Shown one piece after another: positions 17,407-34,104 of a stretch of DNA of 64,000 nucleotides. The notes beneath the pieces are model-generated. The model made no database searches. It was given only the letters and a program-made list of their open reading frames with translations, and was not told the DNA's origin. How positions within the stretch are numbered: the first letter of the stretch is position 1; each line of letters begins with the position of its first letter. The position numbers and the translations under genes were made by a program. Origin of the DNA: Akanthomyces muscarius (lineage: Eukaryota; Ascomycota; Sordariomycetes; Hypocreales; Cordycipitaceae); the NCBI RefSeq assembly GCF_028009165.1, contig NC_079242.1, forward strand, positions 3,782,001 through 3,846,000, in the 5' to 3' direction.

Positions 17407-19434
17407 CTACGCAAGCAAGAGATCCCACAGAGCCTGCTGGTCCACAAAGTCGTGGTGAATGACATTGACCAGCCAGTAGTCGTCGCGGATGCCGCCGAGC
17501 AGCGTTGCGCTGGGCGAGCCCTTGCCGTAGACGCGCGACCACTCGTCCCAGATGCCAAAGGCCTCCTCGCACCACGCGCGGAACGAGACCTCTTCGATAA
17601 TCGTCGGCGTCACAATCTCCTTGCCGGGAAAGACGCCCCACGTCACGGCGTTTGTGCTGCTGGTCGTCGTCGTGGCTGCTGCTGTTGCGCTACTTGCATT
17701 GTCGGAGCTGACAAAGTCGCCCTTGGCGTTGGCGGCGTAGAAGCACACTACCTCGCGGACGCCAGGCCGCTGCAGCTTCTCCTTGAGCGCCGCCCAGTCG
17801 GCCGAGGACAGGAAGAACTCGAGAAAGGCCTTTTGGAAGACGAAGCCGTTGGCGGGGCCCCAGCCAAAGGTGGCGTCGCTGGAGCGCGTGCTGTTGACGG
17901 CGGGCTGCGAGGCGACGGTCCACCAGCCCTTTGCGTTGAGGGCGGCGAGGTGCGGCGTGATGGTGCTCGACTCGGCGAGCAGCTCCTCCTCGCTCCACGG
18001 CAGAGCGGCGAGCTCGCCGCGGACGTGGCGCACAAACATGTCGTCAATGTCCTGCTTGGTGGCCGGGTGGCCCCAGAGGCGGACGGCCTGCGTGACCGAC
18101 ATGTGCAGGCTGACGCCGTAGCCGTCAATCTCGCCGTACGCGGGCGAGCGCGAGTCGCCGAAGCGGCCGTTGGGAAAGTCGTCCCACGTGGCCTCACGGC
18201 CGAGCGCGCCCTCGCCCTCAGAGATGGCAAGCGTGTTGGCGCGGGAGTTGAGCGGCTCGGCGAGCGCACCGGCCTCGGCGCCGGTGGCTTCCCACTCCGG
18301 GTTGGTGCGCCGCCCGCTGCTGGCGATGACGCGATTATGCGGGTCGGAGCCAACGGAGGAGTGGCGCCGCGAGGAGCGCGAGTGGCTGCGCGGACGCGGA
18401 ATGGCGTGGCCGTTGACCTGCAAGAAGGGCGCCGAGGTCGGGCCGCCATCGACAATGGCCTCCTCGGCGGCGGGCTCGTCGGGGATGAGGTTGGTGCGCT
18501 CGAGGATAAAGGTGACAGCTTTCTCAAGGTTGAGGGTGTAGAAATGGAAACCCTTGGGGCCGGAGGTCTTGCTCTTGACGGTGCGAACCTGCTCGACGAG
18601 CTCGCTGAGGATGTCGACGCCGATGGCCTTGACACGCTCGTCGTCTCCCTTGACGGCAGTCAGGCGTTCGAGGATGGCGGGCGGCATGGCTGCGTGGCTT
18701 AGCTTGGCCGTGCGCTTGATCATGGCGAAGCTCTGGATGGGCATCAGGCCGGGCATGATGGGGATGGTCTTGAAGGCACCGCTCGGGTGCTGTCGCAGCG
18801 TCGCCTCAAACTTTTCGTACGCGTCGATATCGAAGAAGAGTTGAGTCATGATGAAGTCGGCGCCCGCCTGCACCTTGTCGACGAGGTACGGCAGATCGTG
18901 CTCCAAAGACTGTCCCAGCGGGTGACTCTCGTCGGCGTGGCCCTCGGGATACGCAGCGACGCCAACGCAAAAGTAGTCGCCGTGCTTTTTGCGAATGTAC
19001 TTGACCAAGTCAATGGCCCAGACGAAGTCCTCCCCGGCCTCATTGTCCTCCTCCTCGTCCTCGGCGGTGCGGTACTCTTCCTTGCGCGGGGGATCGCCGC
19101 GCAGGGCCAGAATGTTGCGGATGCCGAGGGCTTTGGCGTCGTCGAGGGCCTTGTCGATGAGCTTGCGGCTCATGTTGGTGCAGGTGAGGTGCAGGCACGT
19201 CGTCATGCCGAGCTCGCGCTGACACAGCTCGGCTAGCTCGAGCGACTTGTCGGCCGTCGAGCCGCCGGCGCCCCAGGTGACGTTGACAAAGAGCGGGCGC
19301 AGTCCTTGCTCCATGCGATGCAACCGGTCGCGCAGGTTGGAGAAGCCCATGGCGGTCTTGGGCGGGAAGAACTCGAGCGAAAAGTACTCCCCGTCGGCCG
19401 GCAGAGCGGCAATCTTGTCGGTAATCTTTTCCAT
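17407..19434 (-). CDS. MET12: Methylenetetrahydrofolate reductase, Met12 type
   Basis: An intronless frame of 675 residues. The enzyme reduces 5,10-methylene-THF to 5-methyl-THF, the methyl donor for methionine synthesis, in the cytosol. Residues 1 to about 310 form the FAD-binding catalytic barrel: the active-site Glu lies in LEFFPPKT (21-27), followed by FVNVTWGAGG, LALRGDPP and FIMTQLFFD. After a Ser/Arg-rich linker (about 340-400) comes the C-terminal regulatory domain with ATWDDFPNGRFGDSRSPAYG and the closing WGVFPG and HHDFVDQ motifs. Yeast has two paralogues, Met12 and Met13; the FFPPKT start and the WGAGGSTA run match Met12 (S. pombe Met11) better. The gene is head-to-head with the mitochondrial leucyl-tRNA synthetase, about 820 bp apart. 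Confidence 0.95.
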   Translation of the reverse strand: MEKITDKIAALPADGEYFSLEFFPPKTAMGFSNLRDRLHRMEQGLRPLFVNVTWGAGGSTADKSLELAELCQRELGMTTCLHLTCTNMSRKLIDKALDDAKALGIRNILALRGDPPRKEEYRTAEDEEEDNEAGEDFVWAIDLVKYIRKKHGDYFCVGVAAYPEGHADESHPLGQSLEHDLPYLVDKVQAGADFIMTQLFFDIDAYEKFEATLRQHPSGAFKTIPIMPGLMPIQSFAMIKRTAKLSHAAMPPAILERLTAVKGDDERVKAIGVDILSELVEQVRTVKSKTSGPKGFHFYTLNLEKAVTFILERTNLIPDEPAAEEAIVDGGPTSAPFLQVNGHAIPRPRSHSRSSRRHSSVGSDPHNRVIASSGRRTNPEWEATGAEAGALAEPLNSRANTLAISEGEGALGREATWDDFPNGRFGDSRSPAYGEIDGYGVSLHMSVTQAVRLWGHPATKQDIDDMFVRHVRGELAALPWSEEELLAESSTITPHLAALNAKGWWTVASQPAVNSTRSSDATFGWGPANGFVFQKAFLEFFLSSADWAALKEKLQRPGVREVVCFYAANAKGDFVSSDNASSATAAATTTTSSTNAVTWGVFPGKEIVTPTIIEEVSFRAWCEEAFGIWDEWSRVYGKGSPSATLLGGIRDDYWLVNVIHHDFVDQQALWDLLLA

Positions 19435-20258
19435 GTCGATTCGATCGAGTTACTCGATGAGTCGGGCTTATAGAAAGGAAAGTTGGTGACGATGTGCTGT
19501 CGTCGACGGGCGTGTCGTCGTTTGCCGTCGATGGTGGGGTTGATCGCAGCGACCGAAAGCGGAAGGCGACAGCAGCGCTAGAAGCTTCGGGTCGGGTCGT
19601 CGGCTTCACGCGCGTGCGTTGTTCGAAGAGATGGAAGTGCACTGTAGGAATGAGAGAGGAAATAGGAGACCAAGGGGTATAATCTGAACGAATTGAATGC
19701 GGAACCCCTCAATCGGCAGGCCAGAGGGAAAGCCGAAGGTAAGCCAAAAGGGCCGCCTGAACTTTTTTGAGCCCCACGCGGGGACAGTTTTTGGCGGGGT
19801 TGGAGGAAAATGTTGATAATAATTAGCGGCCTCGTTGGTTGGATTAGGGGAGCACGGGGAGCACGGGGAGCTTGGGAAGCAAAAGGCCATGGCTAGATTA
19901 TTGCGCAATACCTTGCCTCTCGCCTGAGTTGTCACAGCGCTACAGTACCTACAGAGTACTTTGCCACACGGCGGGGACGTGGTAGCGGTCTTGAGCGCTG
20001 TCGCGAGTCACCTGAGCGGTGCCGGAGCGCGGAACAGCGGCGCTCTTTAGCGATCACGCGTTTCCTTTCAAGCTGTGCCACAGCGCCACCAGCCGCTGTA
20101 GCTCCAGCCACACCACACCAAGCCCTGTCAGGAACGCCAACATTTGCTTGAGCTCTGATTCCCATTACCCATCGGCATCGCATTCGTTTAGCTGCCATCT
20201 GTCTTCGTGTTCCACAGACAAGCGCTTCCCTATCGCCGATGCGCATCATGGTAACATC
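19435..20258. promoter_or_regulatory. Shared upstream region of MET12 and mitochondrial LeuRS genes
   Basis: 824 bp separates the start codons of two divergent genes, so both promoters must lie here. I see no clear TATA box or palindromic operator. The frame of the LeuRS gene is open upstream of its ATG but reads as low-complexity leader. Confidence 0.6.
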
Positions 20259-31667: not shown

Positions 31668-31897
31668 TCATATATACGACATTGATAACGCCCGCCACAC
31701 TCTTCGTGGCATGTTCGGTCTGGTGGCTGCCCGCGAGCTGGCCCGGTTGCTAAATAACAACTCTGTTGCTGTGCTCTCCCCCGTTTTATGTGTTCATAGT
31801 TGTTCACCTTCCAAATTAATACTTTATATATATAGCTATACTTTAAACTATTTAAATAGTTATTTAGATAGGTTCTTTATAAGCCTATCTACTAGTA

Positions 31898-31899
<2 letters not shown>

Positions 31900-31947
<48 letters not shown>
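31900..31947. repeat. (TTA)n microsatellite
   Basis: About 16 tandem TTA triplets at the left part of the AT-rich island. Confidence 0.95.
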
Positions 31948-32097
31948 GTATTAACTACTCTAAGGTAGGTATTAAACTATCTAGTACTATAGAGTTTATA
32001 TAAAGAAGGAAAAACTAGAGTGCCTAGGGGAAAACCTCTTCTACTATAGTAGAGTTAGTATAGTATTATACTAGTATATAGGTAGTTAGGAGCTATA

Positions 32098-32492: not shown

Positions 32493-33631
32493 CTATAGAG
32501 CTCCTTCTCTTAATATAGTATAAAGAGTAAAGTTTAAGGGGAAGATTAGTAGGTAGGCCTAGTAGTAGAGAATAAAGGTTAGGTCTTTATACTTATACCT
32601 ATAGGGACTACTTTAGGCCTAATATATAGGGGCTAGGCTAGAAGGGGGCTAGGTGTAAGTAAATATAATCTAAGTACTATAATATCTTTGTTTTTAGTAA
32701 GGCTCTAAAAGGGATAGTATAAGTAAGTTATAAGTAAGGGAAGGCTAGGGGCGCCCTAAATCTATAGTAATAGCGCTTATAAGCTTAATAGTACTAGCCT
32801 ATAAATAGTATAGTAGTATACTAAGTCTAGTATTATAATACTAGATAATGCGCTTAAAAGTATATATATTATAGCACCCTTATATTATAGCTATAAACGC
32901 CTTGTACCTTATAGTAGGTAGTAGAAATGTAACCTTTTTTTTTTCTCAATATAATATATTTTTTAAAATATTATAATTAATTAATTATAAAGCCCTATGT
33001 CTATAAGTAGGAATTAGCCTTTTAGGTATTCTTCTTTAATCTATAATAATAACTTAATATTAAGGCCCCTTATTATAACTTATAAGATATAAAATTAACC
33101 TATATAAAGTAATTTAACTTAAAATAACTTATTTTTAAAGATTATTATTAATTATTTAAAGGCATACTCTATTATACTAATACTTAGTATACTACCCTTA
33201 TAGGAGTGATACCTTAATATTAAAGTATATAGAGTATTTTATAAGTAGGCGTGTTGCTTTTCTTTAGTGTTTATATTCCTAAAATTACACTATTAATATT
33301 TAAGAACCTTTAAGATTATTTAGTAATTAAAGTTCTTTACTAATAGTACTTTATAAATATATAGTCTTTTATAATTATAATTACGAGTATATACTAGAAA
33401 GAAATTATAAAGGTATTTATATAATATATTAATAAAATATAATTCCCTAATATAGTAATCCTTTTACGTTATTATTTTTTTTTTAGATATACTTAGATTA
33501 TACTACTCCCTTTATATACCTAGATATATACGCCACACTATACTATATCACACTACACATCTAGCCTGCCAGTTTTCCTACTCTTACACAGACACAGATA
33601 GTAAAACAATACAAATAACCCAAACAGCGGC

Positions 33632-33643
33632 AAAAAAAGAAAA
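33632..33643 (-). terminator. Pol III terminator of the tRNA-Ser locus
   Basis: On the minus strand TTTT-C-TTTTTTT begins 18 bases after the last base of the tRNA 5' half. Runs of four or more T end Pol III transcription, so the transcript would contain the 3' half, the spacer and the 5' half in that order. Confidence 0.65.
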
Positions 33644-33660
33644 GAGCAGAGCGGGAAAGA

Positions 33661-33746
33661 TTCGAGTGCAACTCCTTAGGCCACTCGGACACTCCGCCTA
33701 CACGACGGAGACAGGATTCGAACCTGCGCGGTCGAAACCATTGCAT
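33661..33746 (-). tRNA. tRNA-Ser(CGA), circularly permuted gene (3' half before 5' half)
   Basis: On the minus strand the 3' half (33746-33703) comes first, then spacer TGTA (33702-33699), then the 5' half (33698-33661). Rejoined, they give a complete class II serine tRNA: acceptor GGCGGAG/CTCCGTC (one G-U pair) with discriminator G; D stem TCC/GGA; anticodon stem TTGCA/TGCAA with loop CTCGAAA (anticodon CGA); variable stem GGT/ACC closed by TTCG; T stem GCAGG/CCTGT with loop TTCGAAT. The break is exactly at 37/38, where eukaryotic tRNA introns sit. The leader's third-last base (G) can pair with C32, the anticodon-intron pair needed by the splicing endonuclease. B box GGTTCGAATCC is perfect. 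Neither missing half is found outside. A pseudogene pair left from a tandem duplication is the main alternative. Confidence 0.72.
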
Positions 33747-34104
33747 ATCGGGCTGTATCCCATGCCACTGGGGCACTCTACCTGATTGGGAAGCGGCCTA
33801 TTTAAGTTTATAGTCAGAGTTGACGTCTAGTTAGTTGGCTAATGTGGGTCGAGCTAGAAAGCTGCTTTGAAAGTTGAGAAGAAGCCTCGACGCTCAGCAA
33901 CTCTCAGTCATGGCATGCGCAAGATACGATGGACAGCTGAGAGATGCCAAACGTGAGACTCGTATGAAGCAAGATAGACCTACGAGAGAAGGAAAATAAT
34001 ATGAAGTTAAAGGAGTGGGCGAAACAAGCTAAACAGAAGAAACAGGCAAGACTGGAAAATCGGAAGAAATGTAGGAACAAGTCCGAGCGACAAGTCTAAT
34101 TCAG
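33747..34104. other. Short spacer, tRNA leader and 3' flank of F-box-like gene
   Basis: 358 bp holding the tRNA leader with its A-box-like motif; the rest is unremarkable and is the 3' flank of the F-box-like gene. Confidence 0.5.
33759..33775 (-). promoter_or_regulatory. Candidate upstream A box of the permuted tRNA
   Basis: The minus strand reads TGCCCCAGTGGC within this interval, matching about 10 of 12 positions of the Pol III A-box consensus. It lies about 34 bp before the B box in the 3' half, a normal A-B distance. The native A box in the 5' half (TGTCCGAGTGG) lies downstream of the B box and could not work in the usual order. Confidence 0.45.

Follow-up and report, generated by a model that had tools for sequence, protein, structure and literature searches.

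A putative circularly permuted tRNA-Ser(CGA) gene with a retained outer 5' half in a fungal genome

The permuted locus and its flanks

The window, by which we mean the whole 64,000-nucleotide stretch of DNA that was analysed, carries on its minus strand a serine tRNA whose two halves stand in reversed order. Read from 33746 to 33661, a 44-nt 3' half (33703..33746; tRNA positions 38-73, comprising the variable arm, the T arm with the B box at 33724-33714, the 3' acceptor strand and G73) comes first; it is followed by a 4-bp intervening sequence, TGTA (33699..33702), which links the tRNA 3' end to the 5' end and is itself devoid of terminator or promoter, and then by a 38-nt 5' half (33661..33698; positions 1-37) which closes with CTCGAA and contains the anticodon CGA. 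The 3' half opens with ATGCAA, and the two halves meet at the 37/38 junction. When they are joined in tRNA order, the resulting 82 nt form standard pairs at all 23 assigned places (acceptor 7, D 3, anticodon 5, variable arm 3, T 5), keep U33, G73 and a long variable arm, and are reported by ARAGORN as a class II tRNA-Ser(cga). Neither a stem pair nor a conserved base, the loss of which would mark a pseudogene, is missing from the tRNA body. An earlier sequence-only reading had claimed intact halves in permuted order around TGTA, a break at 37/38 and a Ser(CGA) identity, and all of these claims held; the reversed arrangement is far beyond chance. The fungal host proposed by that reading was also supported, since the methylenetetrahydrofolate reductase of the window (17407-19449) is 90% identical to the proteins of Cordyceps javanica and C. 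militaris, its closest match being an unnamed protein at 98%. The host is a hypocrealean, very probably of the Cordycipitaceae, related to insect-killing fungi.

In native order the window yielded no tRNA gene with the tRNA finder and nothing above the cut-offs of Rfam. A covariance model of the permuted order (R1) was made from 11 class I tRNAs of the genome rewritten as 3' half-TGTA-5' half (alignment A2), with Ser, Leu and His left out of A2; an earlier alignment of 14 sequences had misaligned the class II variable arms. R1 found one match in the window, the permuted locus (47.8 bits, E 3e-16). By itself this is no proof of permutation, since the model scored higher, 53.9 bits, on a control of tandem ordinary tRNA-Arg genes (L008), whose first gene supplies the 3' half and whose second gene the 5' half of the match. 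The permuted locus differs from such a pair in that the outer halves which would complete ordinary genes there have decayed or are absent. Applied to 94 of the 121 loci (all except L001 and L032-L057), the model returned 96 rows, the three strongest of which were tandem ordinary genes, namely the overlapping loci L008 and L009 with the same Arg pair and L085 (His, 26.6 bits). The remaining 93 rows reached at most 22.5 bits, the top ones having their start or end midway within an ordinary tRNA gene. No match came from viral, bacterial or archaeal contigs when these were scanned with exact patterns, as expected for a fungal gene. Tandem pairs of one isoacceptor were recorded at L008 (Arg ACG), L074 (Gly GCC) and L085 (His GUG), about 157-271 bp from start to start, and pairs of this kind are raw material for further permutations.

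A degenerate outer 5' half (33747..33782, minus strand, last bases CCCGAT), the relic of an upstream tandem copy, directly abuts the 3' half. Its 36 bases share 25 identities with the intact 5' half, with 10 mismatches in the 35 aligned columns and 4 gap columns, and the score of this global alignment was equalled by none of 2000 shuffles. The relic was aligned to the 5' halves of the other serine tRNAs as well (shuffles doing as well, out of 2000: CGA 1, UGA 0, AGA 17, GCU 155), and more than one serine tRNA gene could be its source; over the first 18 bases it agrees at 14 positions with the intact half and likewise at 14 with an ordinary-order tRNA-Ser(CGA) gene of the same genome (L110, described below). 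It may thus stem from a different serine tRNA gene, and this uncertainty weakens any argument from differential decay. In a BLAST-type search the joined tRNA aligned at 86% with 33778-33703. The sequence-only reading had derived the locus from the tandem duplication of an intron-containing gene followed by loss of the outer halves. The relic speaks directly for the duplication, while a simple loss of the outer 5' half has to be given up, as a decayed copy still adjoins the 3' half; no canonical intron is left at the boundary between the two.

An A-box-like sequence, TGCCCCAGTGG, is located in the relic at 33775-33765 and precedes the B box of the 3' half by 51 bp. In L110 the two boxes are 114 bp apart, which becomes 52 bp after its introns (52 and 10 nt) are subtracted. 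A TATAAA element (33807..33812, minus strand) starts 30 bp upstream of the 5' end of the relic, at -66 from the 3' half, and AAATAG comes next at 33803-33798. In the same genome a TATA at -50 to -22 was present in 23 of 52 stretches upstream of ARAGORN-called tRNA genes, against 6.2% of 20000 random window positions. On the other side, the 5' half is followed by a trailer (33644..33660, minus strand) and by a Pol III-type terminator (33632..33643, minus strand) made of T4 (33643-33640), C and T7 (33638-33632), the runs starting 17 and 22 nt past position 37; the terminator noted by the earlier reading downstream of the 5' half is accordingly present.

Directly downstream of the permuted gene there is an AT-rich tract at 32650-33550, with GC contents down to 19%. 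To its right the GC content is 48% and then 70%, to its left 36-49% with a dip to 25% at 31750-32049. The tract is possibly a mutated transposon beside the tRNA gene.

Ordinary serine tRNA genes of the same genome

An ordinary-order tRNA-Ser(CGA) gene is present in the genome (L110, C11:925400-925720, starting from about 925495), so the permuted unit is ruled out as the sole gene of this kind. The sequence-only reading had named an expressed normal tRNA-Ser(CGA), together with a silent permuted locus, as the mark of a rearranged pseudogene, and the search for such a gene has thus supplied one half of this pair. L110 had been missed by a first pattern and by a BLAST-type search because neither can recognise a gene that an intron interrupts in the D loop; the first pattern gave 23 matches, and ARAGORN found no tRNA in any of the 23 loci. 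It was a B-box pattern, GGTTCRAAYCCNG, that led to L110: its 26 matches all fell within the window or the examined loci, and a Ser(CGA) gene with another B box could be missed by it. The tRNA census is a partial one, the Rfam tRNA search having scored 63 of 781 candidates.

L110 and the permuted gene have the same anticodon, a class II body and an interruption at 37/38, but L110 keeps the normal order and carries a 10-nt canonical intron and a 52-nt GT-AG intron in the D loop, unlike the permuted gene. The alignment of the joined permuted tRNA to L110 has 60 identical, 21 mismatched and 1 gap column; the identical columns of the 82-nt tRNA number 57 with the UGA, 62 with the AGA and 54 with the GCU serine tRNAs. 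With identities of only 54-62 columns, the permuted unit is no fresh fragment of any gene compared. A near-identical parent gene in ordinary order was not seen in a search which scored one candidate place and is blind to relatives of about 70%.

The intron in the D loop of L110 belongs to a wider pattern. All seven ordinary-order serine tRNA genes found (GCU 3, AGA 2, CGA 1, UGA 1) and one tRNA-Trp gene contain GT-AG stretches of 51-56 nt inside the tRNA body (L110; L113, C1:4173860-4174060; L105 and L106 on C1; L090 and L091 on C2; L092 on C6; L088 on C3). These begin with GTAAGT, GTGAGT or GTACGT, have CTAAC or CTAAT near the 3' end and finish with AG; they are located in the D loop, in the anticodon loop at 35/36 or, in Trp, in the variable region. 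After their removal ARAGORN accepts 8 of 8 as tRNAs, the Trp one with an anticodon-stem mismatch and an irregular variable arm. With start, branch and end sequences like those of the spliceosomal consensus, the 51-56-nt introns look spliceosomal, in genes expected to be transcribed by Pol III. No report of spliceosomal-type introns in tRNA genes was among the literature matches listed, and these introns are possibly stranger than the permuted gene itself. L110 and L113 (Ser UGA) have an additional 10-nt canonical intron at 37/38 and would therefore need both splicing machineries. With its anticodon-loop intron option the tRNA finder reported nothing in L105 and L106 and called L110 a tRNA-Gly, so genes of this type are easily missed. 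Within the partial census, every serine tRNA gene found except the permuted one has a 51-56-nt intron.

Another set of tRNA-like places was recorded as well. A common B-box end, GGTTCGAATCCTGGCTGTG, occurs at C1:2025732, C1:3514421, C2:5086661 and C6:3837000; two of the four places (L104 and L121) have a tRNA-like A box, GGCCGAGTGG, and are alike over the stretches compared, and in L104 ARAGORN finds no tRNA. These places are possibly a tRNA-derived mobile element.

Working gene or remnant

We consider it probable that the locus is a real type II (junction 37/38) circularly permuted tRNA-Ser(CGA) gene, functional, in a fungus. The most serious objection is that it could be a rearranged, non-functional pseudogene, the middle of a tandem tRNA-Ser duplication that is untranscribed or unspliced, UCG being read by L110 on C11 and perhaps by Ser(UGA) through wobble. 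The existence of L110 fits this explanation, since it may make the permuted gene dispensable and its loss perhaps tolerable; the decay of the outer 5' half fits it as well, and the adjoining strongly AT-rich stretch (19-22% GC at about 32800-33550) may mark a damaged neighbourhood. Against these points, the inner halves are without defect beside a relic with 10 mismatches in its 35 aligned columns. In a simulation of random substitution all 23 pairs and 12 conserved bases were spared in 7 of 200000 runs at 20% divergence and in 0 of 200000 at 30%. Furthermore, the limited search for a parent gene showed no close one that could have given rise to a fresh fragment, and the terminator and promoter-like elements are in place. 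On this balance a pseudogene appears unlikely.

Two further explanations are given far less weight. The locus might be an artefact of assembly or collapse, in which an ordinary tandem tRNA-Ser pair was mis-joined: tandem repeats are classic sites of mis-assembly, and the genome does contain tandem same-isoacceptor genes for Arg (L008), Gly (L074) and His (L085). However, the contig is 5.4 Mb long in a genome of 36.2 Mb and 12 contigs, the 201-bp stretch around the locus had no other match in the genome search, and a simple collapse would not be expected to leave the 3' half adjoined by a decayed 5' half, which makes an artefact very improbable. Equally improbable is that the permuted unit is transcribed for another use, as a stable circular or half-tRNA regulatory RNA that does not decode. 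A circular intermediate is expected from the architecture and the redundancy with L110 would free the gene for such a role, but features of a decoding tRNA-Ser, among them G73, U33 and the long variable arm, are preserved in the body.

Finally, that the relic and the 3' half (33782-33703) form a functional tRNA in ordinary order, with the downstream 5' half as a stray duplicate, is hardly credible and largely refuted, for although the Rfam tRNA model matches this stretch with 22.4 bits, the gathering score, 29, is not reached, ARAGORN reports no tRNA there, and inspection by eye shows 2 of 5 anticodon-stem pairs, C at position 33 and one broken acceptor pair.

Expression, origin and known permuted genes

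In a type II permuted gene, leader and trailer are expected to make a bulge-helix-bulge-like splice substrate at the junction. With the cloverleaf imposed, 12 pairs are possible between the trailer and the relic as leader (33656-33645 with 33782-33775 and 33761-33758). The energy of the constrained precursor was equalled by 60-66 of 1000 two-arm shuffles and 22-24 of 1000 trailer shuffles, and the number of leader-trailer pairs is ordinary: of 1000 shuffles each, 243 and 428 of the two-arm kind and 78 and 266 of the trailer kind had at least as many; the pairing is no proof and only suggestive. Left free, the precursor folds into another structure (-48.7 kcal/mol, versus -44.3 kcal/mol with the cloverleaf imposed), and the joined tRNA on its own, folded freely, does not adopt the cloverleaf. 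The rule for the 3' splice site of eukaryotic tRNAs is a 3-nt bulge. As judged by eye, C32 can pair with G(-3) of the leader, so that AUA would bulge out as three nucleotides where the 3' cut is made; the constrained fold of lowest energy has the leader paired with U33-G35 instead. Base -3 of the predicted 3' splice site is G in the relic and in the L110 intron and A in the L113 intron, these being the two ordinary 37/38 introns checked by eye. As for the processing enzymes, the genome has two matches to the tRNA splicing endonuclease domain PF01974 (Sen54 and Sen15 lie outside this search) and one match to the Trl1-type ligase domain PF09511; a ligase of this type is reported as the fungal one (PMC4090602).

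The order of the halves, the cloverleaf, the relic, the boxes, the terminator and the endonuclease-family and ligase domains are established at the level of sequence, and from them transcription, a circular intermediate and function may be predicted as follows. Pol III would start upstream of the relic, guided by the TATA and by two boxes whose order and distance are normal, the A box of the relic and the B box of the 3' half; it would stop at the T run, giving a transcript of leader, 3' half, TGTA, 5' half and trailer. The halves would fold to the tRNA body, from whose anticodon arm leader and trailer would extend in the place of an intron. The Sen endonuclease could then cut after position 37 and before position 38, and the Trl1 ligase could join 37 to 38. 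The product would be a circle in which TGTA links the two tRNA ends, and removal of TGTA by RNase P and tRNase Z would release mature tRNA-Ser(CGA). As to its origin, a tRNA-Ser gene would have been duplicated in tandem, the upstream 5' half having decayed except for its promoter part and most of the downstream 3' half having been lost.

The predicted route resembles that of Cyanidioschyzon merolae (Soma et al. 2007, as cited in PMC3978253 and PMC4033280), in which splicing at the halves produces a circle from which the intervening sequence is removed; the circle is opened there by RNase P and tRNase Z (PMC4033280), and the review PMC3978253 treats the processing of permuted precursors as known for algae. 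In C. merolae expression was analysed and a circular intermediate was reported (PMC3978253, PMC4033280), whereas the fungal gene is known from sequence alone. The junctions of the alga vary (20/21, 37/38, 50/51 and 59/60; PMC3978253, PMC4033280), and its permuted genes are reported to carry a run of T behind the 5' half (PMC3978253), likewise found here. The promoters compare differently. According to the same review, the A and B boxes of known permuted genes are inverted and in a position unsuitable for TFIIIC, an upstream TATA-like element being the probable promoter; in C. merolae this element is within 50 bp of the 3' half (PMC3978253). In contrast, the relic described here offers an A box before the B box, in the normal order, and the TATA is farther out, at -66. 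The A-box-like sequence of the relic and the TATA could together solve the promoter problem of permuted genes.

Permuted tRNA genes are recorded in that review (PMC3978253) from unicellular algae, a nucleomorph and a crenarchaeon, and most eukaryotes are described as being without them although 37/38 introns make them plausible. Its Table 1 gives type II permuted Ser(CGA) genes for four prasinophyte green algae and for the nucleomorph of Bigelowiella natans, and a second, atypical permuted Ser(CGA) entry of another type for O. tauri (PMC3978253); a permuted Ser(CGA) is also reported from the Amorphochlora nucleomorph (PMC4494063), and permuted tRNA genes from Auxenochlorella (PMC12633428). The gene described here agrees with the type II genes of the algae and B. 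natans in the amino acid, the anticodon, the 37/38 junction and the leading 3' half (PMC3978253). Its spacer is 4 bp, against 5-28 bp in the type II Ser(CGA) genes of Table 1 and 1-74 bp among the intervening sequences of known permuted genes (PMC3978253), and its host is a fungal nuclear genome instead of a prasinophyte or a nucleomorph (PMC3978253). An origin independent of the algal and nucleomorph genes is likely. A trace of tandem duplication beside a permuted gene is also described for the permuted tRNA-Cys of O. lucimarinus, where, however, the extra 5' half is downstream of the 5' half (PMC3978253); here it is upstream and fused to the 3' half, and could serve as promoter.

The earlier reading knew of no fungal case, and none was among the literature matches listed, which were judged mostly on titles and the openings of abstracts. 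As far as seen in the literature searched, this is the first fungal permuted tRNA gene and brings a new kingdom to the known kind; its retained outer 5' half, placed as a promoter, may make it a variant. It is a tentative proposal, which may well need revision, that the gene functions, as the first permuted one of a fungus to do so, and that its decayed outer 5' half has been kept for two purposes: to supply an A box ahead of the B box at the normal distance, and to act as a leader strand whose pairing with the trailer presents the splice sites.

If true, the fungal case means that permuted tRNA genes can arise outside algae and with a Trl1-type ligase. If the gene is functional, it shows a permutation surviving alongside the ordinary internal promoters of Pol III, and the surviving outer 5' half makes the promoter problem of permuted genes testable.
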